DNA from: Siphlonurus alternatus
Lineage: Eukaryota > Arthropoda > Insecta > Ephemeroptera > Siphlonuridae
NCBI GenBank assembly: GCA_949825025.1
Contig: OX463778.1
Span: 26,903,551 to 26,967,550, forward strand
DNA length: 64,000 nucleotides
Direction of reading: 5' to 3'
The position numbers and the translations under genes were made by a program. Positions 13,813 to 54,429 of this stretch are shown here, one piece after another. Each line of letters opens with the position of its first letter. Position 1 is the stretch's first letter. The notes under the pieces were generated by a model that saw only the letters and a program-made list of their open reading frames with translations, was not told the DNA's origin and ran no database searches.

Positions 13813-13822
13813 TTTATTTATT
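13813..13822 (-). terminator. Poly(A) signal of the secreted-precursor gene
   Basis: On the minus strand two overlapping AATAAA hexamers lie about 40 nt after the TGA stop at 13860-13862. This gives a very short 3' UTR and supports this as the last exon. Confidence 0.7.
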
Positions 13823-13859: not shown

Positions 13860-13932
13860 TCAGTTGTGCCTGCCGTTGAGCCTCTCCACCAGGGCAACAG
13901 TTGACCTCGGGGTTGTCATCTTGTAGTAGTCG
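13860..13932 (-). CDS. Precursor exon 7: C-terminus and stop
   Basis: Acceptor TGTCACAG, entered in phase 2. It encodes SDYYKMTTPRSTVALVERL, then NGRHN and TGA. AATAAA follows about 40 nt later. Confidence 0.7.
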
Positions 13933-16900
13933 CTGTGACACAAAGAACGATATTAGCCGGACAGGGAGAAATTCACACTTCGAAATATATCCCATCATAA
14001 ATGTACAAAATATTCTACAATCACTTTTATGTTCACAGCAATAAAGTTCAGATTCTTTAAAAATATTTTGCAGTTATCTTAAATAATAAATATAATTAAA
14101 AGTAAAGCTGAAAAAATTAAGTAACACCTCTTCTATTTTTTATATAATCGAGAAATTCATTTTGGCATAATAAATAATTGGTCAGTTAAAACACTTCAAG
14201 TCACGTAATTTCAATTTTTTCTGAATTTGAGTCCCAATAGGCCGTTTAGCAGTTTGAGCACGATCGATACTGAGATTGGCTGAGATTCGGCAGCGGAGCG
14301 CTCGGACGCGATTATTGCCCTCTTTATCTCCCAATCTGTCGATTTACTTTAAAACAAAGTTTTAATATTTTTTGCTTAAAATATATTCCAAAATAATGAA
14401 CTGTGATTTTTGTTTCAATTTTAAAGACGTTACTTAAAACAAATGTAAAAACGGTTAAATTTGCGGATTCATGATTTTCATGGCGTCATAAAACCGTCAA
14501 ATAAATTTAATGCAAAATTATAAGTTATCCATGAACTGCAATTTTAATATATACTACAAAAGCGGTTTAACGATTAATAAATTTTTACCAAGATACAAAT
14601 TCTATGCCACCTATATATACACCTATCCATTTATACAATCTTATTCTAGTGCAGTTTTTGTATTGATACAAACAAAATAACCTGCAATGTATGTATATCA
14701 AGATCAACTTAATTCAAGTACACTTTTTAAGGCTTTCTACAGTGATGTTCTACTTGTTTTGACATTATTGTACTATTAAAAATAAAGACCCCATGTCCTA
14801 TTTCAGATTCTATAGAAATCCAAATATTACTATACGACTCTTCTCAAGAGCTGCTCAAGTAAGACTGATTATTTAACTTTATGATTGGGTAGTGGAAGAC
14901 GGAACATAAATTTGGTAACATTATTAATCAATACTATTGTTCGTGAGAAGCAAGTGAAAAAAGCAAGTTCTACTCCCTCTTCTGCTGCTTGCTTATAATA
15001 TATCTATGTGCTGTAGGATATAAAAAATAAAAACAAACCAAGATGCTGAAGAATTTCGGCCACCCTATACTTTTCTTCTGTTGTTTTATTGTTTGTTGAT
15101 GAAACTCCTTGTAAATTAAAAAAAATAATAAAAAAAAAATAGTTTAGCTAATGTAAGTATAATAATGAAATTTTATTTCAAAATTATAGCACTTGAAATT
15201 ATTAAATGAACATTTATATACGAATTGTATCAAAATTTTCACGGCAGTAAAATGGAATATTTTTATTATATTAAAGTAATGAAAAGAATTAAAAAAAAAA
15301 ATAAAACGGAGAAAGAAATAAATCATAACGCAACGTTCCCGAGCTTTCCTTGAGTAAATTTATTAAATACTTTGTTTTGGACTGGTGCTATATTTAATTT
15401 TAAAAATAATACGAGCTTGTTCTACAGAGATTAGAACAATGAGATTCTATAAAGGTGGAAACATAATAATATATTATTACTTAACAGCATATCGGATGTT
15501 ATATCTGCGCGGTTTAGGAATTGATAATCATGAATTTGGGGACTCTAGTGACCATAATTCATTCAATTAATTGCTTTTGTTCTTTTGTTTAATTTTTTAT
15601 TTAATTATTTAATTTTTTTTAATTTTTATTTGTTATGAATTATGAAAATCGTAAATCCGCAAATTTTAGCGTTTTTGTATTTTTTTTATAATTAAAAAAC
15701 ATAACATCCCTAAAATTAAGAAAAATCTCAGTTTATCATTTTCGCTGGATACTTTAAGCAAAAATACAAAAAGTGTGTTTTAAAGTATAGCGACTGAGAA
15801 ATAGGGGGCGAAAATCGCGTCCGATCGCTCCGCCGCAGTCTTGCGTGCTCGTACGGTACGACGAGCGTATTATCAGAGATCTTATATTGTGCAATGTAAG
15901 CTCTTTGGTATTATCTCAGCCAAAAATTGTACGGTTGTGCTTAAACTTGCTACATGGCCTTTTGGGACATACTTTAACTCAAATTCAGGAAAAAAAATAT
16001 CAAGAATTGCAATTACGTGGGTAGGTAGGTCCTGTGATTTATCCTATAAAATTATTATTACAAATCTAAAATAAAAATAATTATGATAAAATATATATGA
16101 AATGATGATATGGAATTTAAGCATCATCATTAATTATTGTCATGTAATAAAAATGTGTTGAATAGTATAAATTTAAATGCTAAATTGAGCTATCATTGCA
16201 TTAAATTTTGACAGTTATAAAAAACCACTTTATTGATTGACAGGTTGTCGTTACCACGATGGTTGTCGATGCCGGAATAAAGACTGATGACTCGATAGGG
16301 TTAATTGGTACGTCACAAAAAAAACACAATTTTTTCTCACCGTGACTGAGCTGGAGCGTCATCATTGGCTTACCTGAGATCAGCGCCACGCAGTCGGGGC
16401 TCGGGCGAGGACCACGCAAATATCGCTCTTTTTGAATCAGCTGGGAAAGAAGACACAGGTGAGTGTACCCTGGACCCAAATGGACTGAAGGTGTAGTGCT
16501 GGAGTCTCCTTAAATTGAAGGTTTTTGATCCATCCAATAAAGAGATTGTTTTAATTAATCAACAATTAATGACTACTGGTGTTCATATACTCAGCACTAA
16601 AAAAGTGTCCGTTTTTTGTTGTTGTTGTTGTTATTTTCTTCCCAACTGGTCAACCTCCCCTTCCAGATCAAAACGATAACTTTCGCCAACCATTACTCAC
16701 TCATACACAAGCTACAGTTAATTTTACATGATAATCCTTCCGGAAGTAGCCGAAAAAAGAGTAAGGTTTATTCGTATATTTGGTAACAATTTCACACAAA
16801 GGTCAGTACTTCTACTTAAAACCACTCTACAAAGTTTCAAAACTGAATTACAAACAGAAGAACTGCAAAATTCACACTTCCGACTACTTCCGGAAGGAAT

Positions 16901-17322
16901 ATAAAATTAATTTGACTGTAGAAAACATGCTCACCTTCTTCCCGCGGGGAGGCCTCGCGCTTTGTAACAATCGAAGTACGGACTGGAATGGGTCGGCCGG
17001 ACTCTGCCAAGCCTGCGGAAAGAAAAAAGAAGCAAAAAGTGGGCAACGCTATCATAAATTTACTGAAAAATATGGGGTATAAAGTTGTTTTCCCCCTTGT
17101 TTTTGTGGGAAATGCTGTTAAAATTTATTGATTAAAAAATATCACGTTATTATGTCAAGACATGCCTGTAGGTGATAACATATAAAAGTTTCAATAACTT
17201 GCTCCCGTGATTAGAATAGAATAGAATAGATTTATTTGACCACAGGCAGTACATACAATGACAAAATAAATTGTCATAATACAGCATTAGTCTTGTCAGC
17301 TTAAAATTATTATTATTATTAT

Positions 17323-17368
<46 letters not shown>

Positions 17369-20300
17369 CACTACTAAGCCGTCTCATAGGTCATTACAAG
17401 ACAAACCTAGCAGTGCCTCCTCGACCCCAGCGCTCCGCACTCTCGTGCAGTAAACTCCAGGGCTGCCTTTTATTTTATCGGTGCACCTCACCAACCTCCC
17501 CATGGGCCCGAAGTAGACGGAGGGAGCCCAGCAACACTGCCTTCTGCATGGCATCCGCCAGCCGCTCAGCGGATCCACGGCAACCTGGTATTTGCCGCAG
17601 CCCTGAAACCAACGAGTCGGGAACTCCACCCATCACCCCAACCAAAAGAACGACCAACACAACCGAATGTCCAGCATAGCTCTGCCGCAAGTCCATGACA
17701 AGATCGCGGTACTTATCGCGTTTTTCGGCATACTTTTCCGTGAGGTTCTGGTCCGAAGGAGCAGAAAACTCCACCACGGTCAACGCCTTCTTGTGCTTCT
17801 CAAGTACCACGATGTCCGGCTTGTTGGCATGGAGCTTGCGAGTGGTGGGAAACGAATAGTTCCAGAAGATCTTCACCTGGTCGTTTGCCACCACTGCCTC
17901 AACGTCCCCAGGAGCGTATGGTATGACAGGTGAATCGTCAATACCAAAATGGTGCCTCAGATGGAAATAAAGCACCCGCAGTGCAGAATTGTGCCTCTCG
18001 ATGTAAAGAGTACGGGCATAGAAAGGACATGCAGAGAGAAGATGCATGGTGGTCTCGGGAGAACGGAAGCACGCCCGACATCTGGTGTCCAGCTGACGAC
18101 CAAAGATCAACTGCTGGTACACCAGGGATGTGAACACACCATCCTGCATCTTGATGATATTGCTCTCTGACACGGAAGTCAGCCCAGAGGAGCGAAGAAA
18201 GGCAAAAGTACGCTCCCTGCAAAGGCCCTGGCTCTCGATGTTCTTGTAGAACACGCTATGCATGCTCTTTGCCATGTGCCCTCGCAAAAGAAGACGCACC
18301 TCCGCCTCCCTCACCCTCTGCTTGGCGAGAGCCCGAGGCAAACCTGCAAGGTTTACTCCTGGCCTCGACTCCGGCTCCACCAAATCCAACTGTACTCCCA
18401 ATGCCCATGCCGCCCTTTTTGCTGCACTGAACAAAAACGCTCCACTGCCCCACAACTCATGCCCATACACAAGTTTAAGATGGGGATCTGTGCTCGTTAC
18501 CACACGACACGCCATACTGATAACCATTCGGTTGTAGATGTTCTCAACTCCGAGCAACCCTCTACCTCCCTGATTACGTGGAAGGTAGACCCTCTCAACA
18601 GAAGCCCGCTTATGGTGGCTCAAGTTTGAAGACATGACTTTCCTCGTGATGGTATCGAGGCCCTTCAGCTCTGCCACGTTCCATTTCATGGCACCAAAGG
18701 TGTAGAGCATGACAGGGATGGCTAGCATGTTGGTCGCTTGGATCTTATTGCGACCCGACAACCTGGAACTCCAGATCTTCTTCAGGCGTCGAACATACTC
18801 CCCACGAAGCACCTTCTGGCACAATCCTGTATCCTGAACGTGACTTTCACTCACGCCCAGGTACTTGTACCGTGCTTCGGCATCGAGATGTCTAATGATG
18901 CTCCCGTCTACCAGCTCCATGTCTTCTCGTTGGCCACACACCTTGCCAAGTCGAATGTGCAGGACCGCACACTTGTCCAAGCCCAACTCCATCCCCGTGT
19001 CTGCTGCAAAGCTACTAACAAGATCAAGCGACTCCCTGAGCTTGCGTTTGCTAGAACCATAGATTTTCAGGTCATCCATGAAAAATGCATGGGTGACCTT
19101 ATGGCTCCGACACGAAGGTGGGCCAGCCATGTACCCATCTTGTTCCCGAAGTAAAGCAGAAAGGGGCAACTGGGAGATGCAGTAAAGTTTGGGGCTAAGG
19201 GAGTCACCCTGGAACACTCCCCGCTGATATGCCACAAACTCTGTGTACGACACTCTACCACCAGCCTTACACTGGAAGCGAGTCCTCCACAGCGGCATGA
19301 GGTCCCCAATGCATCTCACCAGATCGGGATGAACATTCAAGATCTCGAGACACCTCAAGATTAAGCCATGCGATGTCATGTCGAAAGCTTTCCTGAAGTC
19401 CACCCAGGCCACAGAGAGGTTCCGCTTATGCTGTATGGCATCTTGACAGACGCAGCGGTCCAGGAGAAGGTTCTCCTTACAGCCCTCGTGGCCCCTCCGT
19501 GCCCCCTTCTGCTCGTGCAACTCTACCCAAACTGGCTGAATAGAGTCCTCCAGTAGCTCATTCAAACAACCAGTAAAACCTTTATACTCGGTGTTGAGCG
19601 TGGTGATGGGTCTATAGCTGGATGGAAGTGACAAGTCCCCCCCTTTGGGGATCAGGATCGTGCGTCCCTCCACCAACCAAGCAGGGATCTCCATCGTGCC
19701 TCTTAACATGGCAGTGTAATGCCTTGCCAAGTGAGGATGCACAGCCGTAAACTTTTTCCACCAGAACGTTTGGATCTTATCAACGCCTGGCGCTGCCCAA
19801 TTGCGCTTTCCTCTGAAAGATCGGGCAACAAGTTCTACTGTGACATCCGGGCACACTACCTGCCTATCCTGCACTCTCCGACAAAGCTTCTCAAACTCCG
19901 AGAGAGCCTGAGACTCGACGTTGAACTCGACACTTTCCCCATAAATTCCCGCCCAGAACGCACGGATAGCATCCGCCGTAGGAGGGTTTTGTGGAGGCGC
20001 TGGTCTCTCCCGCTCCAAAAAGCGGCGCGCATTGTGAAGAAAGACGTTATTATCCTCCAAGCACTGCAAACGACTCAGCTTTTTTGCTTTTATAGCCTTC
20101 AGGGTGCGGATTCGATCCAGCAACTTCTGTTTGGCAACAACCAAAACAGAAAAGCGTAGAGTCTTGTAAAGCGTCCGTGTTGAAGCTAAAAGTAGCTTCA
20201 TCTTCCGGGAAGCTGGTCTCCCTGAACGGACAAACTCCACAACACTCTGGATTCGTGACGCACCCCGTCTGGCCTCCAGAATCCTCTCCTCCAGATCTGC

Positions 20301-23300
20301 TATCTGCCCACGGATCTTTTCCTGGGCACTCGGGCCATCCTGCATCTTGGGAAGCATGAGCTTCGCGGCGGCAAAGACAGCCACGTTGACTTCCATCAAC
20401 GTTGACTCCTGGGTAAGGCATGAGAAAAGTGCCTCATTCATCGCGACCAAGTCTTGTGCTCGGATTTTCCTTCTCGGTCTCCGAAGGAATGGTCGCTTTT
20501 CGAAACGCAGACTGGTCTTTTCAATCTCCTCCCTTAGCTCTGCCTCAAAGTCCCTCCCCTGCAAAACAACAGGTTCAGGCTGTGCCTCATCTTCGGAGGA
20601 AGACGACGAACGAAATTCCACCGAGTCTGAGACAGAGGCTTGCGAGCTAGAAGCAGAAGAAGGCGTCTGCGACCTTGGTAAAATTCCCCGACGCCCCAGC
20701 ACAGCTCTGGCTTGGTCACTCAACTGCTGTTTCGTGACCCCCATCTCCGGATGGCGCTCCTGCCAAATCATCAGAAGACGGGCCATATATCCCCTGCGCT
20801 GAGGCTCACTAGCTTCGTAACAGACAAGCAGTTCGTCACAAAGCTCCTCCGTCCACCTCAATCGCCCATGTAGAGGCTGGTCCCTTTGTCCCCCACCACT
20901 TGGTGCAGCCAACACATCCGAGATGCCGGCATGGTCGGGGGGCCTTCGCATGTTATGCCTAGGAACCATTTAATTTATACTCATGTGGAAGGGGGGTTAG
21001 CCCATACCACAGAGTCCCCAGCATTGCCAAGATTTTGCTGCCTAGGTACTCTGAGCTCCGCGGCAGCAGGGAGAGCTCAGGCTCCATAACCAGTTAGTGG
21101 CTATGGACTGAGGGCTGTAATTAAACAACCCCCAGGTGGAGCCCCAAGGGCGCGGTCCCACGCGTCGCGTACTGAACTTTTCCCACACAGTGTTTAGCAT
21201 GAGTCAAGAGCAGCCGGGTGCCCTTTATTATTATTATTATTATGTCTTTTTCTTGCTTTCTTCTTCATAAGCACTAACACCGGGCTCAATCAAGCCAAGG
21301 TGCAAGCGCCCGTACCAAACATTGAGAGGGGATTGCGGGTACACATGCGGGGGTGCTACAAGCTCAAAACCTTGCGCACAATGTTAGCCGTGCCAAGAAT
21401 AGCAGCCTTCTGCATGACACGCATGTGGTATTCTTTGAGAGCCAACTTCTCTCTGGCAAATGACCAGTCTTTGGTCACAAGACCGTTACTAGAGATCACA
21501 ACTGGAACCACATCAACACTACGGAGCTGGTACATGTCTTTGAGCTCGACAGCAAGTGGCTGGTACTTGCGCTTTTTCTCCGCAACTGTGGTCACAAGAT
21601 TCTCGTCCAGCGGGACAGCAATGTCGACAATCACCGCTGTTCGAGCTTTCTTGTCGAAGAGAACAAGATCAGGTCTGTTTGCTTCAACAGCTCTATCTGT
21701 GGTGATGGCAGAATCCCACAGGATTTTTGCATCCTGATTACGGAGAACTTGTTCCGGCTTGCACTTATAGTACGGAACCTCTGTCTCAATGAGACCAACT
21801 TTCTTGGCCAAAGCTTGATGTACAACTTTGGCAACAGAATTGTGGCGCTCTAAGTACTCTTTTGGAGCAAGCACTGGACAGCCCCCAGTGACATGCTGAA
21901 TGGACTCGTTAGCCTGCTTGCAAAGACGACACCGGTCACTGATGTTGACTTTGAGGATGTGTCGCTCATACGCCCTAGTCCTGATGACCTGATCCTGTAT
22001 GGCACAGACAAAGCCCTCTGTCTCCGCAAACAACCCACTTGTCCGCAGCCACTCAGTGGAACTCTTGGTGTCCACCTGATCCGAAGATAACGCTGCAGCA
22101 AACCGACCATGCAATGCTTTTGTTGACCACTCCAAGACTCTGTCAGCCTGGGTTCTAATGGCAGGCTGAAACTCTTGCTCACTCAAATGTAGCGGAGTGT
22201 AGCCACGGTCCTGGTTGCAAATAGCTGCATGCAACCCATCACCACGTGACACAAAGTACTGCCGAAGTTTCAACTCCTGCTGACGACACATCATCTCCAT
22301 GCTGAGCAAACCTCTTCCACCTACATGACGTGAAAGGTACAGTCTCTCGACTGAGCTCCTCGGGTGATGTATCCTGTGCTTCGTGAGGGTGGTTCTCACT
22401 TTTCTATCAAAAGCTTGCAGTGACGTCTCCGACCACCTGACGACACCAAACGTATATCCAGCCACAGGGATAGCCCACGTATTAATCGCAGTAATCTTGT
22501 TCCTCGCACTGACAAAAGACTTGCAAATCTTGTCGACTCGAGACAGCACTTTTTTCTCGACTTGTTTTCTGGCATCTACATCTTTAATGCCAATTAGCTG
22601 CTGCAGACCGAGGTACTTGTAGTTTTCCTCGACACCCAAGTCTTGAATAACGGTGCCTCCCATGAGCCGCAAGCCTTCTTGTGGATCTTGAATCTCCCCT
22701 TTTCTCACATGCACAACAGCACACTTGTCAAGACCAAACTCCATGCAAATTGCATCACTAAAACTTTTGACAAGTTCAAACATGCTGTGCAACTGGTCTT
22801 CACCAGAAGCATATAACTTGAGGTCATCCATGTAAAACTGGTGAGAAATGCGAACTTCTGGATTCCTCTGTAGAACGTAACCATACCCAGAGGTTCGGAG
22901 CATCCTGCTCAGCGGGTTCAATGCAAGACAGAACCATAATGGGCTGAGACTATCTCCCTGAAAAATACCTCTCGAGATTCGCATCTCTCTGGTCTTGTAG
23001 CTGACCCCCCCTTGGTTTACATGAAGACAAGTCCTCCACATGCCCATGCAAGAAGTGAGAATCTGAACAATGCAAGGATGAATTTTGTAAATGTGAAGTA
23101 CAGAGAGGAGCCAGGAATGGGGGACTGAATCAAAGGCTTTCTTGTAGTCAACCCAACCTACTGAAATATTACGGTGTTTTCTACGAGCCTGCTGAGACAC
23201 AACAGCGTCAACTACCAATAACTCCCGGCATCCCCTCGTGCCCTTCCGACAGCCATTCTGTTCCTCAGCAAGAAGTCCATTTGCGACAAGATGGTCATAA

Positions 23301-25326
23301 ATCTTTATCGAAAGAATGGATGTGAAGATCTTGTACAGAGTGGGAAGACATGTGATTGGCCTATAGTTCTTGGGATTCAATGAATCACCTGACTTCGGCT
23401 TCATGTACGTAATTCCAAGCGTACAAAATCTTGGCACAATGGACGGATCTTCCAAGGCCTCATGAAAGTGAGTAGCAAGAGCCTGGTGAGTAGTTTTAAA
23501 ATACTTCCACCAGAAGTTGTGAATGCCATCCACACCCGGAGCCTTCCAGTTCTGCGTTTTCCTAATTGCAGCCTGTACATCAGCCAGTGTAATACTAACT
23601 GCTGGCATTGCCGGAATGTCTCTGCATTCCTCCTCTTCCTCTCGCAACCAGTAAGCATCTTCAGAGTGTTGCTTTGGCTCCGACCAAATGGACGACCAAA
23701 ACTCTGCCATTGTTTCTGCTTTGGGCGGCCGCTGAGGTTGCTCCTCTTTGCCCTCTTCCTCCAATTTCCGATAGAACAACTTCTGATCAGCAGCAAAAAG
23801 GCTTTCTTGCTGCCTCCGCTTAGCTGCCTCATTATATCTCCTGATACGGGCACCAAGCGCTGCAATTCGCTGTCTTAGTTGCTCTTCCTTCTCTCGGAGC
23901 TTCTTCTCGAAGTCCCTGTCCGTCCTTCTCACCTTGATACTTCTTGCAATGAGACGAATGCCTGCTAAAACCTTTTTACTGCATCCATCCTGGTCAGCAA
24001 AGAACGCCGCCAGATGGCTTATATCCCTCCGAGCTCTGTTGATCTTCTCCTCGATCCTCTTCCTCCAAGCTGGCACATACTCTTGAGAAGAACGCTTACG
24101 GGCTTGCCGCTGCGAGCGATTCTTAATCTCAACACCAAGAACCTGACATACAGCTAGAGCAGCACAGTGCACAAGCCCAGCAACCTCCTCCAGACTAGAC
24201 CCTGCCAAATCAGTTTCTAGCATCTGATCTGCAACAGCAACACAGGAGAAAACCTGCACATTGCATCTCAATTTGGGAATGCGAGGGCGACTCTCAAGCG
24301 GAACACCCTGATATTGCAACTTGAAAGACTCGTATACATCCCCAAGCTTGTCTCGCAAATCTCCTTCCATATGATGTTGACTCTCTGCTCCTTCCCTTTC
24401 TAGCTCTGGCTGAGGCAACACTTCTTCCATAACATCCTCCTCCTCTCCTTCACTGCCACTTGAAGGTGCTTGCTGCTGATGTAGCTGCAACTCCTGTGCA
24501 ATCTCCCCCTTGATCTTGTCCAGTTCCGCTGCCGAGAGAGCTCCTCTACTCATGATGGAACGCAGCTGGCTGCAAACTCGCTGCTCGTCCATTGTCGTGT
24601 CCGGAAAAATCTTCTTCCACTCGCCAAACATTCTCACCCTATACCCTTCCATCTCCCTCTCAATGTTGGTACTCCTATAGTACGCACGCATGACCGACAT
24701 ATTCATGTCCTTGGTCCACTTCGTGCGTTGGCGTACAAGGCCAGCAGCAGTGAGAGGAGCTCTGGGCTCCTCCAAACCACCACCTGCCTGCGCAGCTGGA
24801 GCAGCTGCACTCGCGGTAGCCCTGAGTGGCGCAGCGCCGCGCCTCCCTCGATGTTGTGAGGAAGATTCACCACGTTCCACTGGTACGGGTAGCTCATTTG
24901 ACACAGACGGCCCAGTACCAGAACCCCCTGCGCGGCCTTTCGACCGGTCGCCATTAACTCGCTCCTTTAAAGAACTTTCCATATTTTCCTTGTCCAGCGT
25001 ACTGGTACTGAAGAGAAGCCCAAGGAACAACTCCCCAGGTGGAAACCCAAAGCACGGTCCCACACTCCGTTACCTCCTTACGAAGGCTGGGTACCCTCCC
25101 TGCCCGTTAGACCCCTGACGGGGAGCCCCCACACCACGACAAGGTGGACATGGGCCCCCCCTGCATGCATCATCCCACATGCTCCCAATCCCCTCATAAA
25201 CACAGCGCCGGGGCACAGTGCAGCATGCAAGCATCTAACACCGATCCCATTGCAAGCGAATACTTGGGCAAAAGCAACATGCAAGGAAAAACATGCAGGG
25301 GGGAGAAGTGGGGCAGCCGGGTGCCC

Positions 25327-25365
<39 letters not shown>

Positions 25366-25703
25366 TTTTATAATAAGCGAAAGAGAAAATATGCCAAAAA
25401 AATACAAGTATAAAAAATACCAGGGAAAGATTTTGACTTCGATAACCTTTTTCCTTTAAGGCGATGAATTCTATCGACGCTTGTCTCTCAGAAAATCCAT
25501 CAAATATTGTTTACTGTGGTCATCAAGTTTTGCCTACTTTGCTGAATTTCGATGTTTCAAGTTTTCATCTTGACGCCACGAATTGCATGGCAATTCATTT
25601 TGGGATCGTATGATATTGCTGTCTTAACAATTTTTTTACTTTCCAATATCAAAATCTGGTATATACTTGCTTGGACATAATATAATTTATGTCCTAGGAC
25701 ACA

Positions 25704-25757
<54 letters not shown>

Positions 25758-28700
25758 TGTATATATTCTCTGTCTGGACTGACATAAGACTCATTTTCAT
25801 ACTGTAACCAAAATTAAAGCCCTACGGGACTCTACTGAAAAACGTTATTCACATAATTATCCTTTTTTTACTAACAATATTACATAGACTGTGAAATATA
25901 ATATTATTTATTTTACCACACCGTTATCAAATTCATTATGAGTGCACTCTGCGATATTAAAACAATCTATTATTTAAAACAAAAAAGTTTTATCATTAAT
26001 TAGCTGCAATGTACATCGCACCCTTTGTGGAGAAAACTCCCATAGTGACTGACGACTATAATAACTTTTTGATTAGATTTTTAATTCTGTTTTTGTTTCA
26101 CATTTTTTATTCGTTAAAAATAAAGCCTTTAGAGCGTGAAACAAAATGATATAATATGCTTGCCAAATTATATTATATGGTCATGCGCCCATATTATATT
26201 TGATGTATATTATACTATATACGCGTATTCAGCTAAATTTGACCTTTTTTCATTATTTTTAATCATACCTTTTTTCACATAAATATTTTTTTTAAAGAAT
26301 GCATCATTAATATTAATATTATTTTTTTTTCTATTTTTACACTTGTAATTTAAGACTGCAGTTAAGGAGGTTTTATTCTGCCATGAAAGACAAAATAAAA
26401 TTTACACAGGAATAAACTTAAGGTAGAGATAACGCCGAACAGCTGATCGACGTAATGCCCTTTGATTAACATGTAAACCTTAGCAAATTGACAAAAATTC
26501 TGAAATTTTTTTGAGAGGCAGATATTAGTGCCTAAAAGCCATAGAAAAAATTTCAAAACGATTTAACGAGCCGATTTTTTTAAATTAATTTTTTTAATTT
26601 TCAGCATAGGGCTTTCCCATGGAGAGCCAAACTGAAAAAATAATTTAAAAAAATCGTCTCGTTAAATGTTTTTGAAACTTTTGCTATGGCTTTTAGGCAC
26701 TAATATCTGCCTCTCAAAAAATTTCCAGAATTTTTGTCAATTTGCTAAGGTTTACATGTTAATCAAAGGGGATTACGTCGAACAGCTGTTCGACGTCATC
26801 TCTACCTTAATTAAGTTGTTTTACCTTTTATAATTTCAGTAGCAATGTTGTCAGCAGCAAACTGCACTTCGGGGGGCTCCCTCGTCAGCATGTAGTCTGG
26901 CGGGAAATTTAAAATTTATAAGAAAATACTTAACACCAGATAATATAACAGACGTCTGAAGTGAGACGAGAAAACTCTCCATAACATAAGAAAATTTCGC
27001 TCTTAGAATGTGCAGTTAAACGGCAAATTACAAATTCATGCAGCAACGAAAATTAATAATGACTATTAATCAGCTTTTCGGGCAACTTGATAATACTCGT
27101 TGGTTATTTTAAGCTACGTACAAGATTGTCGGAAACTGGCTGGGACGGAAATTTTAAATTTTATGATTGGCTGCAACTGAGCAGCGCAGAGACCGCTCTG
27201 AACTGAGAAATTCTTAGTAAATCAGAAACGGAAAAATGAAACGAAATTTCGGATTGGTCGAGATTTCCGTTCCGGCCAACCGTGTACTTAACCTTAAGGG
27301 GCAGGCAATGATAAAGAAAAAAAAACATGATAGGCTGAGCTCATAAGATCAATGTTAAACAATCAGAAGAGTTGGGGGAAGACGCTATAACTCCCTTTAA
27401 AGGCATACAGGCCTCAAATTACAAATTAGACAGTCACCAAGTGGGTTTAGAGTATATAATCAACATTCGCATCATTTTTTTCCACGCGTGATGCATCCGT
27501 GCGAAGTCGCAGTTCAAAGTAAGAAATTTGGTCCTTGATGACGTCACGAAGTCCTTGATGACGTCACAACTCAATGCTAATCGGTGCTAGCTGTGAGTTG
27601 TGACGTCAGCCAGGACTTTCTTTACAGCGCGACTTCGCACAGACGCACCGCGCGCAGGTAAAAATAATACGAATGTTGATTATAAACTCGAGCAACACTT
27701 AATGTCTGTCTAATTTGTAATTTGAGGCCTGTATACCTTTAAGTTGAATTCCAAATTTAGCCCCTCATCTCAATCTGCACCACCCATGCATGATATTATA
27801 TGATGTAACAAAAAAGCAACACCATGCGTGCCTATATTGCCTATTATGTACCGAGGGTGCAAACACGGGAGAGATATATAACGTTACTACCAGACTATAG
27901 AAGTAAATAAAAATTCTAAAATTTCATTTATTTTAATTAACCTGAGATAATAGTATTCTTTCATAATACAGCGATACTTTGCTTCAGATTATATATTTAT
28001 TTTTTTATAACTTCTTTTTATTTCTGCAGAAATGGTGTATGATATTAATTTAAATTAAAAACTGTATTTTTAGTTGTCGTGTGAATAGAACAATAAAAGT
28101 AAAACGAAATATCCAAGTCCTTACCAGAAAAACACTTAAACATTAAATTCCGTATTTTTGATAAGACCAAAAGAGTATATGAGTATTGAGTAGAGTATAT
28201 TGAGTATGTGATGCAGCGTCCAAAAAATGCGAACAAAATGAAATTTTTACTACTTTTATATTACGCACAAGCAACATAAAATTTAATCACCTCACAATAA
28301 GCTCTGTTTATATTTAATGTGCGTAAAAGTGAACTCAATTCGACGATAGAATGCAAAGTACTTGAGTATATAAGGCTCAAATCCGCCTGCAATGCTGACC
28401 AAAATTAACTTTGAGTACAAAATTCTTTCACGTCATTGCATGCTATAGCGAGGTTTTGACAATTTTCCCGTCGATATTCTCATGTTGTGAGGACCAATCG
28501 AACGTGTTGAGGCTATCAAACACGAAATTTATCATAATTGTCAGTAGCTCAACGTGCGTCTATACAATTTAAAGGGGGATAATTTGAAATCTGAAGTCAC
28601 CATATTTTGGAATCTTTCCAAATGATTTGTCTCCGAAAATACTTTCAGCAACAATAAATTAGCATTGTAATAAATTACAATAGGAACTTAATTATATAAG

Positions 28701-29229
28701 ACGATTCATTGCGAAATCACATTTTAAAACATGCAGTATTGTAAAATTTACCATGGCTTTCACTTTTGTATTTTCAAATAAAAAATTTATGATCGTGATT
28801 AAACACAAGTTATTTTGTGGGACTTCAATAAGATATTATTCAGTTGAAAAGACAATTTGTTAAACGTGTTCATTTTTGAACATCTGTTAGGTACTCACTC
28901 TTGAATTGGTTCGCGGATCTCTTCCCGTATAAAAGCGATTTTTTATTGAACGACTCTGGAACACGAATGACAATATTTGATAAGTTTTTCTCGCATGGAA
29001 GAATAAAATGGAAATTGTTACCAGAGGTTTGAAGCAGATCTCCAACAACAGGTAACATCAGATTTGGAGCCGCGCGGTAGAAATCTGGAACCATAATAAA
29101 TTAATAACTTGAGACATGTATCGACTTATAAGCCAAATTCCTCCATCTAAAACTAAATCCATCAAAGTTACTGCATAGGGAAAGACGTTGCACAGCACAG
29201 ATTCTTTTCCCTCAACTGAGTTGGGTATG

Positions 29230-29268
<39 letters not shown>

Positions 29269-31325
29269 TCTCCTTATAAATAAAAATTATTAATAAAACT
29301 TTTTAAAATAATCTTTAAATATTAATTTTATCGTTTTAAAAATAATGGTTTCATGAATATTGATTTTCAAATTAATTCTATTAGAAAATTACTTGAAATG
29401 TCAATTAATTAATGAAAAATATAAGAATTTAAGAATTTATATACAATATACTCAGGAAAAAGATTATTGTGTTAAAAATTGATTTTTTATCATATATAAC
29501 TTTCAAAAAAGGACATCGCATTTTTTTTCTATTTGATGTTTTTGATGACGTTACTGACCAGTTAAAATAGTACATTCAATTTTTTTGTGATCAGTTCAAA
29601 CTAAAATTTCTTTTCAGATTGAAAAAGATGTCAAGCGACAGTTATTTGAAAAATTTGAAACAAATTATTAATCATTAGTGAGTTGGTATTTCTGATATTT
29701 TTAATGATGAGGATTATTACCATCATCGTTTCATTTACCATGAGGTACTCCCTCTCTCCCACCCTTTTATAAAAATTCCCTTGAATGGCAATTAGCTTTA
29801 GTGGAAGTTCTCAAACAATTTGCTCGACTCACAGAGAAACTTGGGCGCGTCGTCACGCATGATCAGTTCGTCGGCCATTTCGTCGTTTTTGCCCCTCAGG
29901 TAATCTGCAACAACAAAACACACCGAGAAGTCCGCGTGAAGTGAAGTGCAAGAGACAAAGTCAAAAATTAAAATTATATAATATATATATTATATGTATG
30001 TTACATTGTTTATTATTATTTATCTAAGGAATGACAACAATCACCTGCAATGTGCATTTTATTTTGCGGCTAATATTATGTCACATGATTTGTTTTTACC
30101 TGTCGACTTGATCATTTCATTAATTAAAGAGTTGATCAATTTAATAAAAACTTGAATGTTTAAATTTCATTAAGTTAAAAAAAAATACTAATTATTATTT
30201 AAATTTTTATATAATTTATATTATAACCGGATTATAGGGTTGAAGAAGTAAAATGCTATAAAGAAACAAGTGACACACCAGATCTAATGCGTAGAAATTT
30301 GCTATTAACGAGTAGTTTGACTTTACTAGAGAATCAGTGACATTATTCGTACGACACGGTCAGGTCCAACAGAGACATGGTATGTCTATGGTCCAAACGT
30401 TTCAACCCCTCTCACGGTTAATTAGTAATGACGTCAGGAAGAGACTCGGGCATCTCAAAGTTTGTCAAATAGTCCTAACTTACGTTTGCCAATAAAGAGA
30501 AACATTTATTTGGAAATAATATCAACTCCTTTTGGCTTCTTCTTCAAATAAAAAAAAAAAAAAAAAAACTATATAATAATATTCTATTATATAGAATATA
30601 TTATGTATATATATAATATTCTATAATACATTCTATATTTATATTCTATAATTACGTCACCTTTATTTTCTTTTCTACATTATATTATATGACTATCAAT
30701 ATGAAATTTCATATAAATATTATTCAGCTAGTATATTTATAATATATTATATTATATTATATATGATGAATAAATTCCATATTAAAAAAGCACTTAGTGT
30801 GTGGTAAAATTATTTGTCTTTTAAAATTAAAGCTTTCTAGTAAATTTTTACAAGCTTTTTTCTTTTTAATTTTCACACTGTTACCTGCCATACATTTTAA
30901 GAGAGGGAGAGGGAGAGACACTTTTCTAAATATATAAAAAAAATCTGTAGAAATAATGCCGCACAGTATACATTTCTACATTTGGTATATATGGATGTTT
31001 CATTACTAATTTTAACAAATATTATATAAAAGGAAAACTTATATAAATTTGTGAACATAGAAGCTTAAATTTTTATTTTAAGCTTTCCTCTTGTCTCATT
31101 AATTTAATTGTGTCGTTTTGGTGAAAACTTTTAAAGTACCAAATATAAATTAAATAATATAATTTAAATTATCAGCTTGTTCTGTAACAAACCACCCTTA
31201 TTATAGTTTCTATTGTTTCACTCACCCTTGTACATGTTGAAGCCGTCTCTGTTGGCCAGGACCGCTTGATGACTCACACCGAACACCAAGAGCACGGCTA
31301 GGAAGAAGAGGAGGCTGCGGACCAT
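13860..31325 (-). CDS. Seven-exon gene for a 167-residue cysteine-free secreted precursor
   Basis: Coding exons (transcript order): 31226-31325, 29833-29904, 29022-29084, 28899-28955, 26825-26896, 16374-16440 and 13860-13932. Introns one to five are all phase 1 and the last is phase 2. Every junction is GT..AG and the frame stays open to TGA. The product starts MVRSLLFFLAVLLVFG, a clear signal peptide probably cut after VLA (residue 24). The mature chain has no cysteine. Likely processing sites are FNKK, LLYGKR (Gly plus dibasic, as for C-terminal amidation) and DSKR. Prohormone-convertase cleavage could release SLLY-amide and longer spacer peptides. The architecture suits a neuropeptide or peptide-hormone precursor, but I do not recognise the family and infer nothing about receptor or tissue. 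Alternatives are a secreted structural or defence peptide. Intron five carries two intact R4-like retrotransposons in sense orientation. Confidence 0.8.
13933..16373. other. Intron 6 of the precursor gene, no further exon seen
   Basis: AT-rich, with several A/T runs (for example near 15118-15140 and 15292-15302). Two GC-richer patches near 14240-14330 and 15800-15870 contain CGGCAGCGGAGCG-like and GCTCCGCCGCAG-like sequence in opposite sense. They may be ends of a larger diverged foldback. Confidence 0.45.
16374..16440 (-). CDS. Precursor exon 6, phase 1 to 2
   Basis: The acceptor has a strong tract (TGTGTCTTCTTTCCCAG) and the donor is CAG/GTAAGC; 67 nt. It encodes ADSKRAIFAWSSPEPRLRG, then ADL, with a Lys-Arg site. 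This is the only exon whose phases bridge the phase-1 upstream set to the phase-2 terminal exon, which argues that it belongs to the gene despite the 10.4-kb intron before it. Confidence 0.75.
16441..17304. other. Intron 5, left part
   Basis: A (GTT)n run lies near 16617-16633. An AGAAT pentanucleotide repeat lies at 17213-17230. Frames on both strands at about 16780-17080 show no recognisable protein. Confidence 0.5.
17305..17365. repeat. (ATT)n plus about 41-nt T tract, 3' border of retrotransposon 1
   Basis: About seven ATT units (17305-17326) are followed by T to 17365. On the minus strand this reads poly(A) followed by (TAA)n, consistent with the 3' end of an R4/Dong-like element inserted in a TAA microsatellite. 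Confidence 0.8.
17325..21224 (-). mobile_element. R4/Dong-like non-LTR retrotransposon 1, apparently full length
   Basis: About 3.9 kb on the minus strand, from a 5' end reading AAAGGGCACCCGGCTGC (21224 leftwards) to a poly(A) tail at 17365-17325. Both ends sit in (TTA)n/(TAA)n microsatellite. The 5' UTR (21224-20970) contains a block at 21129-21163 that is also found at the start of the neighbouring element. The single long ORF is intact. TAA-repeat insertion and a C-terminal restriction-like nuclease are known features of Dong/R4 elements. Confidence 0.8.
17475..20969 (-). CDS. R4-like retrotransposon protein 1 (RT plus restriction-like endonuclease), 1164 aa
   Basis: Copies element RNA into DNA at a nicked target by target-primed reverse transcription. 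Visible order: a Trp-anchored helical domain resembling Myb/SANT (about 37-92, WTEELCDELLVCYEASEP), an acidic/serine linker (100-150), a helical thumb-lead region, then the reverse transcriptase (about 390-700). The RT has motif A VDFRKAFD (523-530), motif B FQGDSLSP (586-593) and catalytic FMDD (630-633). A zinc knuckle follows, C964-x2-C967-x8-H976-x4-C981. Last comes a PD-(D/E)xK-like nuclease with PD at 1051-1052, E1067 in VVEFSAP, and EKRDKY at about 1082-1087. There is no N-terminal C2H2 finger, unlike R2. No internal stop or frameshift is seen, so it may be recently active. Base composition is far richer in GC than the flanks. Confidence 0.85.
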   Translation of the reverse strand: MVPRHNMRRPPDHAGISDVLAAPSGGGQRDQPLHGRLRWTEELCDELLVCYEASEPQRRGYMARLLMIWQERHPEMGVTKQQLSDQARAVLGRRGILPRSQTPSSASSSQASVSDSVEFRSSSSSEDEAQPEPVVLQGRDFEAELREEIEKTSLRFEKRPFLRRPRRKIRAQDLVAMNEALFSCLTQESTLMEVNVAVFAAAKLMLPKMQDGPSAQEKIRGQIADLEERILEARRGASRIQSVVEFVRSGRPASRKMKLLLASTRTLYKTLRFSVLVVAKQKLLDRIRTLKAIKAKKLSRLQCLEDNNVFLHNARRFLERERPAPPQNPPTADAIRAFWAGIYGESVEFNVESQALSEFEKLCRRVQDRQVVCPDVTVELVARSFRGKRNWAAPGVDKIQTFWWKKFTAVHPHLARHYTAMLRGTMEIPAWLVEGRTILIPKGGDLSLPSSYRPITTLNTEYKGFTGCLNELLEDSIQPVWVELHEQKGARRGHEGCKENLLLDRCVCQDAIQHKRNLSVAWVDFRKAFDMTSHGLILRCLEILNVHPDLVRCIGDLMPLWRTRFQCKAGGRVSYTEFVAYQRGVFQGDSLSPKLYCISQLPLSALLREQDGYMAGPPSCRSHKVTHAFFMDDLKIYGSSKRKLRESLDLVSSFAADTGMELGLDKCAVLHIRLGKVCGQREDMELVDGSIIRHLDAEARYKYLGVSESHVQDTGLCQKVLRGEYVRRLKKIWSSRLSGRNKIQATNMLAIPVMLYTFGAMKWNVAELKGLDTITRKVMSSNLSHHKRASVERVYLPRNQGGRGLLGVENIYNRMVISMACRVVTSTDPHLKLVYGHELWGSGAFLFSAAKRAAWALGVQLDLVEPESRPGVNLAGLPRALAKQRVREAEVRLLLRGHMAKSMHSVFYKNIESQGLCRERTFAFLRSSGLTSVSESNIIKMQDGVFTSLVYQQLIFGRQLDTRCRACFRSPETTMHLLSACPFYARTLYIERHNSALRVLYFHLRHHFGIDDSPVIPYAPGDVEAVVANDQVKIFWNYSFPTTRKLHANKPDIVVLEKHKKALTVVEFSAPSDQNLTEKYAEKRDKYRDLVMDLRQSYAGHSVVLVVLLVGVMGGVPDSLVSGLRQIPGCRGSAERLADAMQKAVLLGSLRLLRAHGEVGEVHR
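21225..21243. repeat. (TTA)n linker between the two R4-like elements
   Basis: Six TTA units lie exactly between the 3' end of element 2 and the 5' end of element 1. Confidence 0.9.
21244..25327 (-). mobile_element. R4/Dong-like non-LTR retrotransposon 2, apparently full length
   Basis: About 4.1 kb in the same orientation as element 1. Its 5' end reads AAAGGGCACCCGGCTGC at 25327 leftwards, identical to element 1 over this stretch. The 3' UTR ends in an A-rich segment (AAGCAAGAAAAAGACA) before the (TAA)n. Proteins of the two elements are clearly different lineages, so this is not a tandem duplication of one copy. Confidence 0.8.
21356..25063 (-). CDS. R4-like retrotransposon protein 2 (RT plus restriction-like endonuclease), up to 1235 aa
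   Basis: Same architecture and presumed role as its neighbour but strongly diverged. A Trp-anchored Myb-like segment lies at about 114-171 (WTKDMNMSVMRAYYRSTNIE). Long charged helices follow (about 320-430), then the RT with motif A VDYKKAFD (638-645), motif B FQGDSLSP (701-708) and catalytic YMDD (744-747). The knuckle is C1045-x2-C1048-x8-H1057-x4-C1062. The nuclease carries RPD (1130-1132), VIVDIAVP with D1147, and EKKRKY (about 1162-1167). The first Met at 25063 lies within a block conserved with the 5' UTR of element 1, so translation more likely starts at Met28 (24982). No stop or frameshift interrupts it. Confidence 0.85.
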   Translation of the reverse strand: MGPCFGFPPGELFLGLLFSTSTLDKENMESSLKERVNGDRSKGRAGGSGTGPSVSNELPVPVERGESSSQHRGRRGAAPLRATASAAAPAAQAGGGLEEPRAPLTAAGLVRQRTKWTKDMNMSVMRAYYRSTNIEREMEGYRVRMFGEWKKIFPDTTMDEQRVCSQLRSIMSRGALSAAELDKIKGEIAQELQLHQQQAPSSGSEGEEEDVMEEVLPQPELEREGAESQHHMEGDLRDKLGDVYESFKLQYQGVPLESRPRIPKLRCNVQVFSCVAVADQMLETDLAGSSLEEVAGLVHCAALAVCQVLGVEIKNRSQRQARKRSSQEYVPAWRKRIEEKINRARRDISHLAAFFADQDGCSKKVLAGIRLIARSIKVRRTDRDFEKKLREKEEQLRQRIAALGARIRRYNEAAKRRQQESLFAADQKLFYRKLEEEGKEEQPQRPPKAETMAEFWSSIWSEPKQHSEDAYWLREEEEECRDIPAMPAVSITLADVQAAIRKTQNWKAPGVDGIHNFWWKYFKTTHQALATHFHEALEDPSIVPRFCTLGITYMKPKSGDSLNPKNYRPITCLPTLYKIFTSILSIKIYDHLVANGLLAEEQNGCRKGTRGCRELLVVDAVVSQQARRKHRNISVGWVDYKKAFDSVPHSWLLSVLHIYKIHPCIVQILTSCMGMWRTCLHVNQGGVSYKTREMRISRGIFQGDSLSPLWFCLALNPLSRMLRTSGYGYVLQRNPEVRISHQFYMDDLKLYASGEDQLHSMFELVKSFSDAICMEFGLDKCAVVHVRKGEIQDPQEGLRLMGGTVIQDLGVEENYKYLGLQQLIGIKDVDARKQVEKKVLSRVDKICKSFVSARNKITAINTWAIPVAGYTFGVVRWSETSLQAFDRKVRTTLTKHRIHHPRSSVERLYLSRHVGGRGLLSMEMMCRQQELKLRQYFVSRGDGLHAAICNQDRGYTPLHLSEQEFQPAIRTQADRVLEWSTKALHGRFAAALSSDQVDTKSSTEWLRTSGLFAETEGFVCAIQDQVIRTRAYERHILKVNISDRCRLCKQANESIQHVTGGCPVLAPKEYLERHNSVAKVVHQALAKKVGLIETEVPYYKCKPEQVLRNQDAKILWDSAITTDRAVEANRPDLVLFDKKARTAVIVDIAVPLDENLVTTVAEKKRKYQPLAVELKDMYQLRSVDVVPVVISSNGLVTKDWSFAREKLALKEYHMRVMQKAAILGTANIVRKVLSL
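25328..25364. repeat. (TTA)n, 5' border of retrotransposon 2
   Basis: About 12 TTA units directly abut the 5' end of element 2. Confidence 0.9.
25365..26417. other. Intron 5, right part, with (TA)n at 25707-25754
   Basis: AT-rich intronic DNA with one 48-bp TA microsatellite. No exon is seen. Confidence 0.55.
26418..26810. mobile_element. TTAA-flanked foldback MITE, family A copy 2
   Basis: TTAA at 26418-26421 and 26807-26810 borders inverted termini GGTAGAGATAACGCCGA and GGTAGAGATGACGTCGA (read inward). The arms fold over nearly the whole length. It lies within intron 5, 14 bp from the donor of exon 5. Confidence 0.85.
26825..26896 (-). CDS. Precursor exon 5
   Basis: Acceptor CGCCAG and donor GTAAAA, with 72 nt in phase 1 to 1. 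It encodes NYMLTREPPEVQFAAD, then NIATEIIK. A family A MITE ends 14 bp beyond the donor. Confidence 0.75.
26897..28898. other. Intron 4 of the precursor gene
   Basis: Contains the foldback at 27397-27742 and otherwise AT-rich DNA. No additional exon is seen. Confidence 0.55.
27397..27742. mobile_element. TTAA-flanked foldback MITE, family G
   Basis: TTAA at 27397-27400 and 27739-27742 borders termini AGGCATACAGGCCTCAAATT and AGGTATACAGGCCTCAAATT (read inward). Inner arms include GCGAAGTCGC and TGACGTCAC complements around a GTGCTAGC-containing loop. Non-coding. Confidence 0.8.
28899..28955 (-). CDS. Precursor exon 4, carries the GKR site
   Basis: Acceptor TTCCAG and donor GTGAGT, with 57 nt in phase 1 to 1. 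It encodes ESFNKKSLLYGKRSANQFK. The Lys-Lys and Gly-Lys-Arg bracket a four-residue SLLY core that would be amidated in standard neuropeptide processing. Confidence 0.75.
29022..29084 (-). CDS. Precursor exon 3
   Basis: Acceptor TTCCAG and donor GTAACA, with 63 nt in phase 1 to 1. It encodes YFYRAAPNLMLPVVGDLLQT plus S. It is followed by an intron of only 66 nt that has no in-frame stop. Confidence 0.75.
29231..29262. repeat. (TA)n microsatellite in intron 2
   Basis: Sixteen TA units; the rest of intron 2 (29085-29832) shows no exon. Confidence 0.9.
29833..29904 (-). CDS. Precursor exon 2
   Basis: Acceptor TTGCAG and donor GTGAGT, with 72 nt in phase 1 to 1. It encodes an acidic stretch starting DYLRGKNDEMADELIMRDD and ending PKFL. 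Confidence 0.75.
29905..31225. other. Intron 1 of the precursor gene
   Basis: AT-rich, with an A run near 30549-30568 and TATATT-rich stretches at 30575-30780. No exon is seen. Confidence 0.55.
31226..31325 (-). CDS. Precursor exon 1: start codon and signal peptide
   Basis: ATG at 31323-31325 sits in ACCAAGATGG, a favourable start context. Residues 1-33 plus the first base of codon 34 are encoded. The hydrophobic core LLFFLAVLLVF is followed by a plausible cleavage region before NRDG. The donor is GTGAGT. Confidence 0.8.
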
Positions 31326-31361: not shown

Positions 31362-31370
31362 TATATATAT
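31362..31370 (-). promoter_or_regulatory. Candidate TATA box of the precursor gene
   Basis: On the minus strand TATATATA lies about 40 nt upstream of the ATG. A CAGTCATT sequence about 30 nt downstream (31332-31339) could be the initiator. This would leave a 5' UTR of only about 10 nt, so a separate upstream 5' UTR exon is the alternative. Confidence 0.4.
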
Positions 31371-32836
31371 ACGAAGATCTCAGTGTACGTAAATGGACGT
31401 CTCAATCAACAGATTTGTCAGCAGCAGCATCATCCCCTGAGGTGGCATTGTTAAAATACTTCGTCTTATTTCAATAGATTGTAAAGATATCTCTCTTGTG
31501 CTGCAAGTGACTCAAATCAAACAGTAAAAATTTGTATCTTTGTTTCATTTGAAATGTTAAGAGTGAGTAGGAGGAACAGATGATGTTTTTATAATCCACA
31601 TTCTGAACAATTGGTAATGGTGGGTGTTTCAAGCAGTATATTAATTATAATATCCCTCTCCCCTCATTTTTATCTATTTAATACAGTGTCACATTTAAAT
31701 ATATACCTGCGGTTATATTGGACTAGCTGTGTTACTATTATATATATATAATATAATATTGTAAGGAGGAATCCTCTTAATTGTTTTGTAGTCTAATACT
31801 AGCTTAATATCAGCTATAGATGCCAGGCTCGTTTGTATAAGTTCTGCTGGCATAAATTAAACCCTTCTAAAATGAATTAATGCCATGGCACTGATACTTG
31901 ACTCATACGGCAGACTTCGTATCGTCATCCTTTCATAGTTGATGCTTGAGAAAATACCTTGTAATTTATGAGAGGAGCTTATAATATATCAAAGTAAAAT
32001 TTTAGCCAATTTTATTTGGCTTCCTTGCCAAAGATGTACACTATGTGGCACATAAGATGTCAAAATTTATAGTGAACTACGACCTTCTTCAATTTACTTT
32101 CTTTTTTAGTGAAAAAAATATTAATCGATTAGTGTTTCTTGAAGCATGTTATAAAAGTTATAATATAAATAAATCGAGAATATTGAATGCACAAGTTTCG
32201 CTCGTTATTCATTAACAGTGCATGTTGCAACAGTCATAATAAAAAAATAATTAGAAATAAAAAGAAAGACGTCTTTATCTATAAATTATAGATATATGGA
32301 TTATGTCATGCAATTTATTTATGCCACTGTTTTGATGATTCTTTTAATTTTATTGTTATTACTATTAATTAAAAACATTTTTTTTTCTTTTTGTTTTTGT
32401 TGATATGTGATTATATTATATATATGTAATTTGACGTGCTTATATTGTTATGTACAATCGAAAAGCAATAAATATTATGAATTATGAATTATGTTGTTAT
32501 ATAGTTTGTGTTGAATGAAGGAAATTAAAAGTTTTTGTTTTAAATTTACGGCAATCTCGTTCATCATCACCCATCATATCTTCTGGGTAAATGTAATCTA
32601 TATATATATATATATGTGTGTGTGTTTCTACTTTCTTTATGATGAAAGCTATTTTAGAAAATATATTATAATTATTAACATTTTTTTTTTTACAGAAATT
32701 CAATATATTGTGAATTTTTTATTATTAAGATAAAAAGGCTATTTTCTTTATATACACAATTTAAAGTCTTTTAAGAAAAGTGATGGCTTTTCTTTAATAT
32801 TAGATATTCTTGTTATTTAATATTACGTCGTGTAAT

Positions 32837-39384: not shown

Positions 39385-39530
39385 GATCAGGAGCGAGGGC
39401 GGGCCCTCACCGCGGCTGGCATCCCTGGGCCCCCCTAGCAGGGGGGGACGGGCAGGGATCCGGGTTGACCTCCCCACGGAAGGGGGGGCGGCACCCGGCG
39501 AGGCTAGACGGCAGTGGGGGCCCGCAACTG
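39385..39530 (-). other. Very GC-rich start of the tetraspanin 3' UTR
   Basis: Directly after the stop the sequence becomes strikingly GC-rich with several runs of six to seven G or C, in contrast to the AT-rich surroundings. No recognised RNA motif; G-quadruplex potential is plausible. Plus-strand and minus-strand frames here are by-products of composition. Confidence 0.5.
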
Positions 39531-39599
39531 TCAATGCCACTTGGCCTTCTGAGCAAATATATCTGCGCGCAGGTTCTGAGCGAAGCAGATGCCTAATAT
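39531..39599 (-). CDS. Tetraspanin exon 9: C-terminal tail and stop
   Basis: Acceptor GATTGCAG, phase 0. Encodes ILGICFAQNLRADIFAQKAK, then WH and TGA at 39531-39533. ICxAQNLxxDI is the usual TspanC8 C-terminal segment. Confidence 0.9.
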   Translation of the reverse strand: MLGICFAQNLRADIFAQKAKWH

Positions 39600-42500: not shown

Positions 42501-43159
42501 ACATTATAAACAATATTTTGTTGCAACCATTGCGAGCAGAAGACTGCAGACAATATAATAAAATTTGATGCGAAAATATTATGTTAAAATGGAAGCTTGA
42601 CCTCAACACCTTTGATGGATATTGTATTAGTATACAGTTAGTGGGGATAATTATTTAAAAATGTTTTGTTTGGGAGTTGCATGCTTTTAATAACTTTTGG
42701 AGATCTCAAAATAATAAAAAAAAAAAAAAAAAAGAAACAAAGAGAAAATATTTCACTTAAAGACTATTAATCATGAGGTGTCAGGGGAGTTCCAATGTTA
42801 ATTGATACATAACAACAGACACAAAACCATGACCACTTCTTCACACACTCTAAAATTTACATAAAAGTTCACAATAATTTAGAGAGAAAGAAAAAAAAAA
42901 ACATAAAAATTTAACATTAAAAAGTGAATACAGTAAAAATTCGTAATTACGCAACTTGTTAGGTAAACTTAATTTTGAGTAAAGGAGATTGCAGTCTCGT
43001 AAAAAATAATAAGCATTGCAGGTATCGGAAAACTAGATATACAAGGTAATACACAAAAGGTAAACCTCATTTCCTAGGTCCGTTGATTTTACGTAATACC
43101 AAGTTTTTACTGTACATAAAAAGAAAAGGATAAATTGCAACATGGCAGTAATTTTTCTA

Positions 43160-43201
<42 letters not shown>

Positions 43202-54394: not shown

Positions 54395-54429
<35 letters not shown>

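Follow-up and report, generated by a model that had tools for sequence, protein, structure and literature searches.

A predicted orphan gene of eight small exons in the mayfly Siphlonurus alternatus, with a probable secreted product and a possible prohormone role

The window analysed here is a stretch of 64,000 nucleotides from Siphlonurus alternatus (assembly GCA_949825025.1, contig OX463778.1, positions 26,903,551 to 26,967,550), and all coordinates refer to positions within it. On its minus strand, from 31226–31325 down to 13860–13932, lie eight small exons that, when spliced by script at their GT..AG borders, join in one frame of 193 residues. The exons and the signals at the two ends of the gene are as follows.

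31226–31325, minus strand: exon 1, 100 nt; ATG, signal-like sequence and start of the mature chain; hydropathy peak 2.65 over 15 residues
29833–29904, minus strand: exon 2, 72 nt, phase 1-1; donor 1.0 bit; placed by hand
29022–29084, minus strand: exon 3, 63 nt, phase 1-1; donor 1.6 bits; placed by hand; its skipping would give a stop
28899–28955, minus strand: exon 4, 57 nt, phase 1-1; contains FNKK and LLYGKR
26825–26896, minus strand: exon 5, 72 nt, phase 1-1
16935–17012, minus strand: exon 6, 78 nt, phase 1-1; TKR site; acceptor 8.2 bits, donor 7.1 bits; new to the model
16374–16440, minus strand: exon 7, 67 nt, phase 1 to 2; contains DSKR
13860–13932, minus strand: exon 8, 73 nt; C-terminus and TGA
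13817–13822 and 13813–13818, minus strand: two overlapping AATAAA, 37 nt past the stop
31362–31371, minus strand: TATA-like run, 36 nt before the ATG, which may be a chance occurrence in A+T-rich DNA

The original prediction had described seven GT..AG exons, with the strand unnamed, that join in a single frame of 167 residues closed by a TGA and followed by AATAAA. All seven were found at the ends it had given, on the minus strand, and the seven-exon join reproduced the frame, the TGA, the intron phases (1,1,1,1,1,2) and the downstream AATAAA; what it had skipped is the exon at 16935–17012. Inclusion of this exon keeps the frame, gives six phase-1 introns and one phase-2 intron, and lifts the model score from 70.8 to 94.9 bits, and its removal returns exactly the 167-residue product. 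The acceptor score of exon 6 is equalled by just 0.04% of the 5076 AG dinucleotides in the unmasked window. A search for further exons yielded no candidate in introns 2, 3, 6 and 7 and none above −2.7 bits in introns 1 and 4; the best three candidates in intron 5 all fell within a reverse-transcriptase open reading frame (ORF), and the rest of that intron may contain one more exon.

Could such a chain arise by chance? Short open pieces easily join by GT..AG in random DNA, and chains were therefore scored by splice-site strength and codon content, with general matrices not trained on the species. The chain search discards donors that do not exceed 2 bits and therefore recovers by itself six of the eight exons, at 80.0 bits, and the hand-placed exons 2 and 3 contribute 14.9 bits to the 94.9-bit model. 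Of 600 dinucleotide shuffles done block-wise, 200 for every block size (60, 150 and 1000), none reached the model, the maximum being 38.5 bits. Furthermore, we drew genomic controls from the same genome (20 stretches of 10 kb on both strands, or 40 strand-stretches), the gene's own searched stretch being 18.3 kb, of which 7.8 kb was masked. When exons were held to 110 nt or less, the control chains reached at most 68.5 bits compared with 80.0 at the gene, and the control stretch that gave 68.5 seems to hold a gene itself. With unrestricted exon length, 2 of the 40 reached 80 bits (86.3 and 274.3) and one reached 95. In the window itself, a chain extending across 38.8 kb of the plus strand came to 90.7 bits, to which a G+C-rich ORF at 39391–39616 contributed part.

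The coding character of the eight-exon frame is seen in its G+C content, which is 0.54/0.41/0.64 at the three codon positions, and G+C is higher within every exon (0.39–0.62) than in the 200 nt to either side of it (0.23–0.41). The splice sites of a neighbouring tetraspanin gene are no stronger than those of the model, with donors from −1.0 to 5.5 bits and acceptors from 0.4 to 4.9 bits. With an open spliced frame and coding character both observed, we are highly confident that the predicted eight-exon locus is a real gene. Its exons are all short (57–100 nt), as had been claimed. Raw sequence can thus be enough to recover a secreted-protein gene made up entirely of such exons, even when ORF scans and domain searches reveal nothing of it.

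The predicted product begins with a signal-like sequence in exon 1, and beyond it the hydropathy of the chain never exceeds 1.0, with no other membrane-like stretch. The likely signal cut, judged by eye, has A and V at positions −1 and −3. Secretion is strongly indicated. The mature chain would comprise 169 residues (~19.3 kDa, pI 9.3, 11 K and 16 R) with no cysteine, and the original prediction is supported on both the signal start and the cysteine-free chain. Its description of the product as dibasic-rich, however, finds no support: the four basic sites of the mature chain are KK, GKR, TKR and SKR, and these four pairs compare with 4.2 expected from the chain's own composition (P 0.64, 20000 permutations). 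In the same permutations, KR occurred three times against 1.05 expected (P 0.075) and GKR once against 0.05 expected (P 0.05), both values uncorrected. Hypothetical cuts at all KR and KK sites would leave, after trimming, pieces of 58, 4 (SLLY-amide), 47, 10 and 41 residues. KK is a less usual cleavage site. SLLY-amide would require cleavage there; if KK stayed uncut, amidation would instead give a peptide of 64 residues with LLY-amide at its end. With a single GKR, a single KK and two further KR sites to go on, the chain may be processed and amidated to SLLY-amide. No repeated peptide units were found in the product, the best exon pair (exons 2 and 5) being matched by 36 of 500 shuffles.

The gene had been called unrecognised, and the searches bear this out. 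The product falls in no Pfam family, and a protein search with the 193-residue query returned 199 candidates from 5.8 billion sequences, none of them at E ≤ 10. This search detects only relatives that have exact 5-residue words in common. The neighbouring gene served as its positive control.

41648–55829, minus strand: tetraspanin-5/17 (Tsp26A-type) gene, upstream on the same strand; seven exons located

The control matched 702 proteins. Among the 120 matches listed, the best E-value belonged to a partial protein of Centruroides sculpturatus (92% over 55%), with Cloeon dipterum at 79% and Vespula at 80%, each over 100%, and termites, a cockroach and a katydid at 73–80% over 93–100%; over 195 columns, the best was Cryptotermes, at 90%. 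Because the identities stay at these levels, it seems that no near-identical species is annotated in the protein database. The absence of protein homologues is weak evidence, since only relatives with exact 5-residue words could be reached and the control itself met no near-identical species. The 456-Mb genome yielded no second locus (eight matches at E ≤ 10, all of them this gene's own exons), no paralogous exons were found within the window, and Rfam gave 0 matches at the gathering score. A PDB sequence match, 'PIIIa' (E 0.068), was taken as chance. In a literature text search, the string LLYGKR did not occur; the matches listed for other product strings contained only 'aifaw' or 'llyamide', on unrelated subjects judging by title, and 'microexon' was absent among the matches listed for the neuropeptide-precursor literature. 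Judged by its sequence, the gene appears to be an orphan, with no recognised relatives and no second locus found in its genome.

The oddest trait of the gene is its layout: six consecutive internal exons of 57–78 nt, all six starting at codon position 2. Phase-1 introns have a frequency of 0.28, and at this frequency, six in a row have a probability of 0.0005, or 0.009 for any one phase. Such a layout recalls the bicycle genes of aphids, which are secreted effectors with small uniform-phase internal exons and an average of about 17 exons (PMC9168663). The likeness extends to the signal sequence, the many small internal exons that start from codon position 2, and the lack of relatives in ordinary searches (PMC9168663). 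On the other hand, the present gene has eight exons, forms one locus and not a family, and has no cysteine, hence no CYC motif. The published bicycle structure classifier (PMC9168663) gave 0.019 for the eight-exon form and 0.032 for the seven-exon form, against a cutoff of 0.72; its logit was −3.9 here compared with −46.6 for an invented eight-exon gene with 180-nt exons and mixed phases. Because it has no cysteine, stands as one locus and fails the classifier, we regard the gene as bicycle-like in form but not as a member.

What might such a product do? In the explanation that we favour, the eight-exon gene, for which the genome search showed no second locus, would encode a 193-residue pre-protein that exon 1 directs into the secretory pathway. 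Proprotein convertases would then cleave the 169-residue cysteine-free chain wherever KR occurs, giving a small number of peptides of which one would end in amidated LLY, and the peptides would be released as signals. The signal-like exon 1 and, possibly, the one GKR (P 0.05) and the three KR (P 0.075) speak for this prohormone reading; against it are, possibly, the dibasic total, which is not enriched, and also the need for KK cleavage to obtain SLLY-amide, the lack of repeated units and the failure of the protein search to turn up a homologue with conserved cleavage sites. We infer convertase processing and a signalling role at a probability that falls just short of even. If the product is processed, it would be an orphan ligand candidate in an arthropod.

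It is also plausible, at a probability somewhat below even, that this real gene encodes an ordinary secreted protein of a gland, the gut, the cuticle or a reproductive secretion that works whole and in which the dibasic pairs are incidental. In keeping with this reading are the dibasic count, which equals expectation, the basic pI of 9.3, the lack of repeated units and the uniform-phase small-exon layout known from secreted effectors, the bicycle genes (PMC9168663). It fits less well with the fact that three of the four dibasic pairs are KR and that one of these is GKR, the amidation form. If the product stays unprocessed, the gene would be another case of the uniform-phase small-exon layout typical of hard-to-trace secreted proteins.

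A variant of the prohormone reading draws on the layout itself. The lengths of exons 2–6 are all multiples of three, each of these exons is in phase 1-1, and four of them, all but exon 3, can be dropped without creating a stop. Exon 4 alone carries the KK and the GKR, and exon 6 carries the TKR. The gene might then be a new lineage-restricted prohormone whose peptide set is changeable by skipping cassette exons, with the 167-residue chain as the form without exon 6; we consider this unlikely. If it were true, the uniform-phase small-exon layout, known for secreted effectors, would also serve a signalling precursor.

We regard it as quite improbable that the product belongs, in strongly diverged form, to a known family of insect neuropeptide-like precursors, such as Carausius CNP1, or to RFLamide. 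RFLamide precursors have 122–211 residues and a C-terminal RFL-amide after RKR or RRR, and AIF falls within their PASAIFTNIRFL-NH2, near the C-terminus (PMC7179676). The 193 residues of the product lie within this range, and AIF follows KR near its C-terminus, which recalls that peptide; however, it is without RFL and without an amidation site after AIF, has SKR in place of RKR or RRR, and contains just one G-dibasic site. By inspection, a C-terminal RFL-amide after RKR or RRR is absent from the 193-residue product. The RFLamide pattern, with up to two mismatches, matched 36 places in the genome compared with 20 for the reversed control pattern, and none of the six places that were translated appeared likely to be an RFLamide gene. 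The lack of a clear RFLamide locus among those six could be counted in favour of a diverged RFLamide here. Nevertheless, because no likely RFLamide gene was found among the six translated of the 36 places (20 for the control), we consider a diverged RFLamide unlikely, the AIF after the last KR notwithstanding.

The C-terminal GQPLRW-amide of HanSolin and the core PSLSIVNxxDVLRQR of CRF-like diuretic hormone, as given in the same source (PMC7179676), are likewise absent from the product by inspection. The iPTH arrangement consists of KR, a mature peptide with N-terminal SD, and then G with two basic residues (PMC7224569); in the present product, the sole G-dibasic site comes after KKSLLY, with no SD ahead of it in that segment. 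The original statement that the product matches no known neuropeptide family holds for these motif-compared families (RFLamide, HanSolin, iPTH and CRF-like diuretic hormone). CNP1 precursors contain several peptides, mono- and dibasic sites and amidation, with 239 residues in the pea aphid (PMC13302288), and these features would suit a diverged relative. Carausius CNP1 and fliktin/Pea-NPLP resemble the product in being secreted precursors that have basic sites for cleavage and few amidated peptides or none (PMC13302288). Compared by description only, they differ from it as follows: the CNP1 of the aphid is 239 residues long with two amidated peptides, whereas the product has 193 and one GKR, and tenebrionid Pea-NPLP precursors have 679–691 residues (PMC9552230); the 193-residue product falls short of the several hundred residues of fliktin/Pea-NPLP precursors. 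The lack of any database relative at E ≤ 10 also argues against this alternative.

That there is no gene, and that the open pieces line up by chance or are the remains of a dead copy, is very improbable. Two donors are weak (1.0 and 1.6 bits), the plus-strand chain reached 90.7 bits and 2 of 40 controls reach 80 bits once long exons are allowed; on the other side, no shuffle of 600 rose above 38.5, no control of 40 reached 80 with exons of at most 110 nt, and the eight exons run without a stop or frame break.

The introns of the gene hold retroelements and foldbacks.

17475–20969 and 21356–25069, minus strand: two different reverse-transcriptase ORFs in intron 5, of 1164 and 1237 residues
26418–26810: foldback with arms of 176 nt, 93% complementary; RNA fold −281 kcal/mol, z −30; begins 14 nt past the exon 5 donor
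16712–16921: second foldback, with arms of 44 nt, 80%; begins 13 nt past the exon 6 donor
27397–27742: third foldback, in intron 4, with arms of 127 nt, 80%

TAA repeats lie at or near the borders of the reverse-transcriptase ORFs (near 17305, 21220 and 25327), and GCAGCCGGGTGCCC is common to the flanks of those at 21210 and 25313. Dong, of the R4 clade, is likewise described with TAA repeats, and by this feature, the two ORFs recall Dong/R4 elements (PMC3774820). No Rfam ribozyme was found around the retroelements; the one Rfam match there, at E 3, was taken as chance. One may speculate that the foldbacks influence the splicing of exons 5 and 6.

In the tetraspanin gene, one expected exon was not found at 41648–55829, and the late exons at 41893–41988 and 41648–41746 are two successive versions of one segment. 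In a tree, the tetraspanin grouped with 25 sequences (support 0.76); 15 of these carry names, all of them from crustaceans or chelicerates. One exon of the tetraspanin resembles in its details that of Cloeon, a mayfly. The Centruroides sculpturatus tetraspanin, which comes from a 16-kb contig, is partial with a duplicated middle segment, and C. vittatus is only 67% identical; the C. sculpturatus sequence is possibly an assembly or contamination oddity. A tRNA-Glu (CTC) reported by ARAGORN at 44902–44975 on the minus strand, inside a tetraspanin intron, may be a tRNA-derived repeat. Elsewhere in the window, on the plus strand at 51578–54076, an 832-residue open frame carries a reverse-transcriptase domain, and most of the small number of relatives that carry names come from insects (Pieris, Homalodisca, Cotesia and Cloeon).
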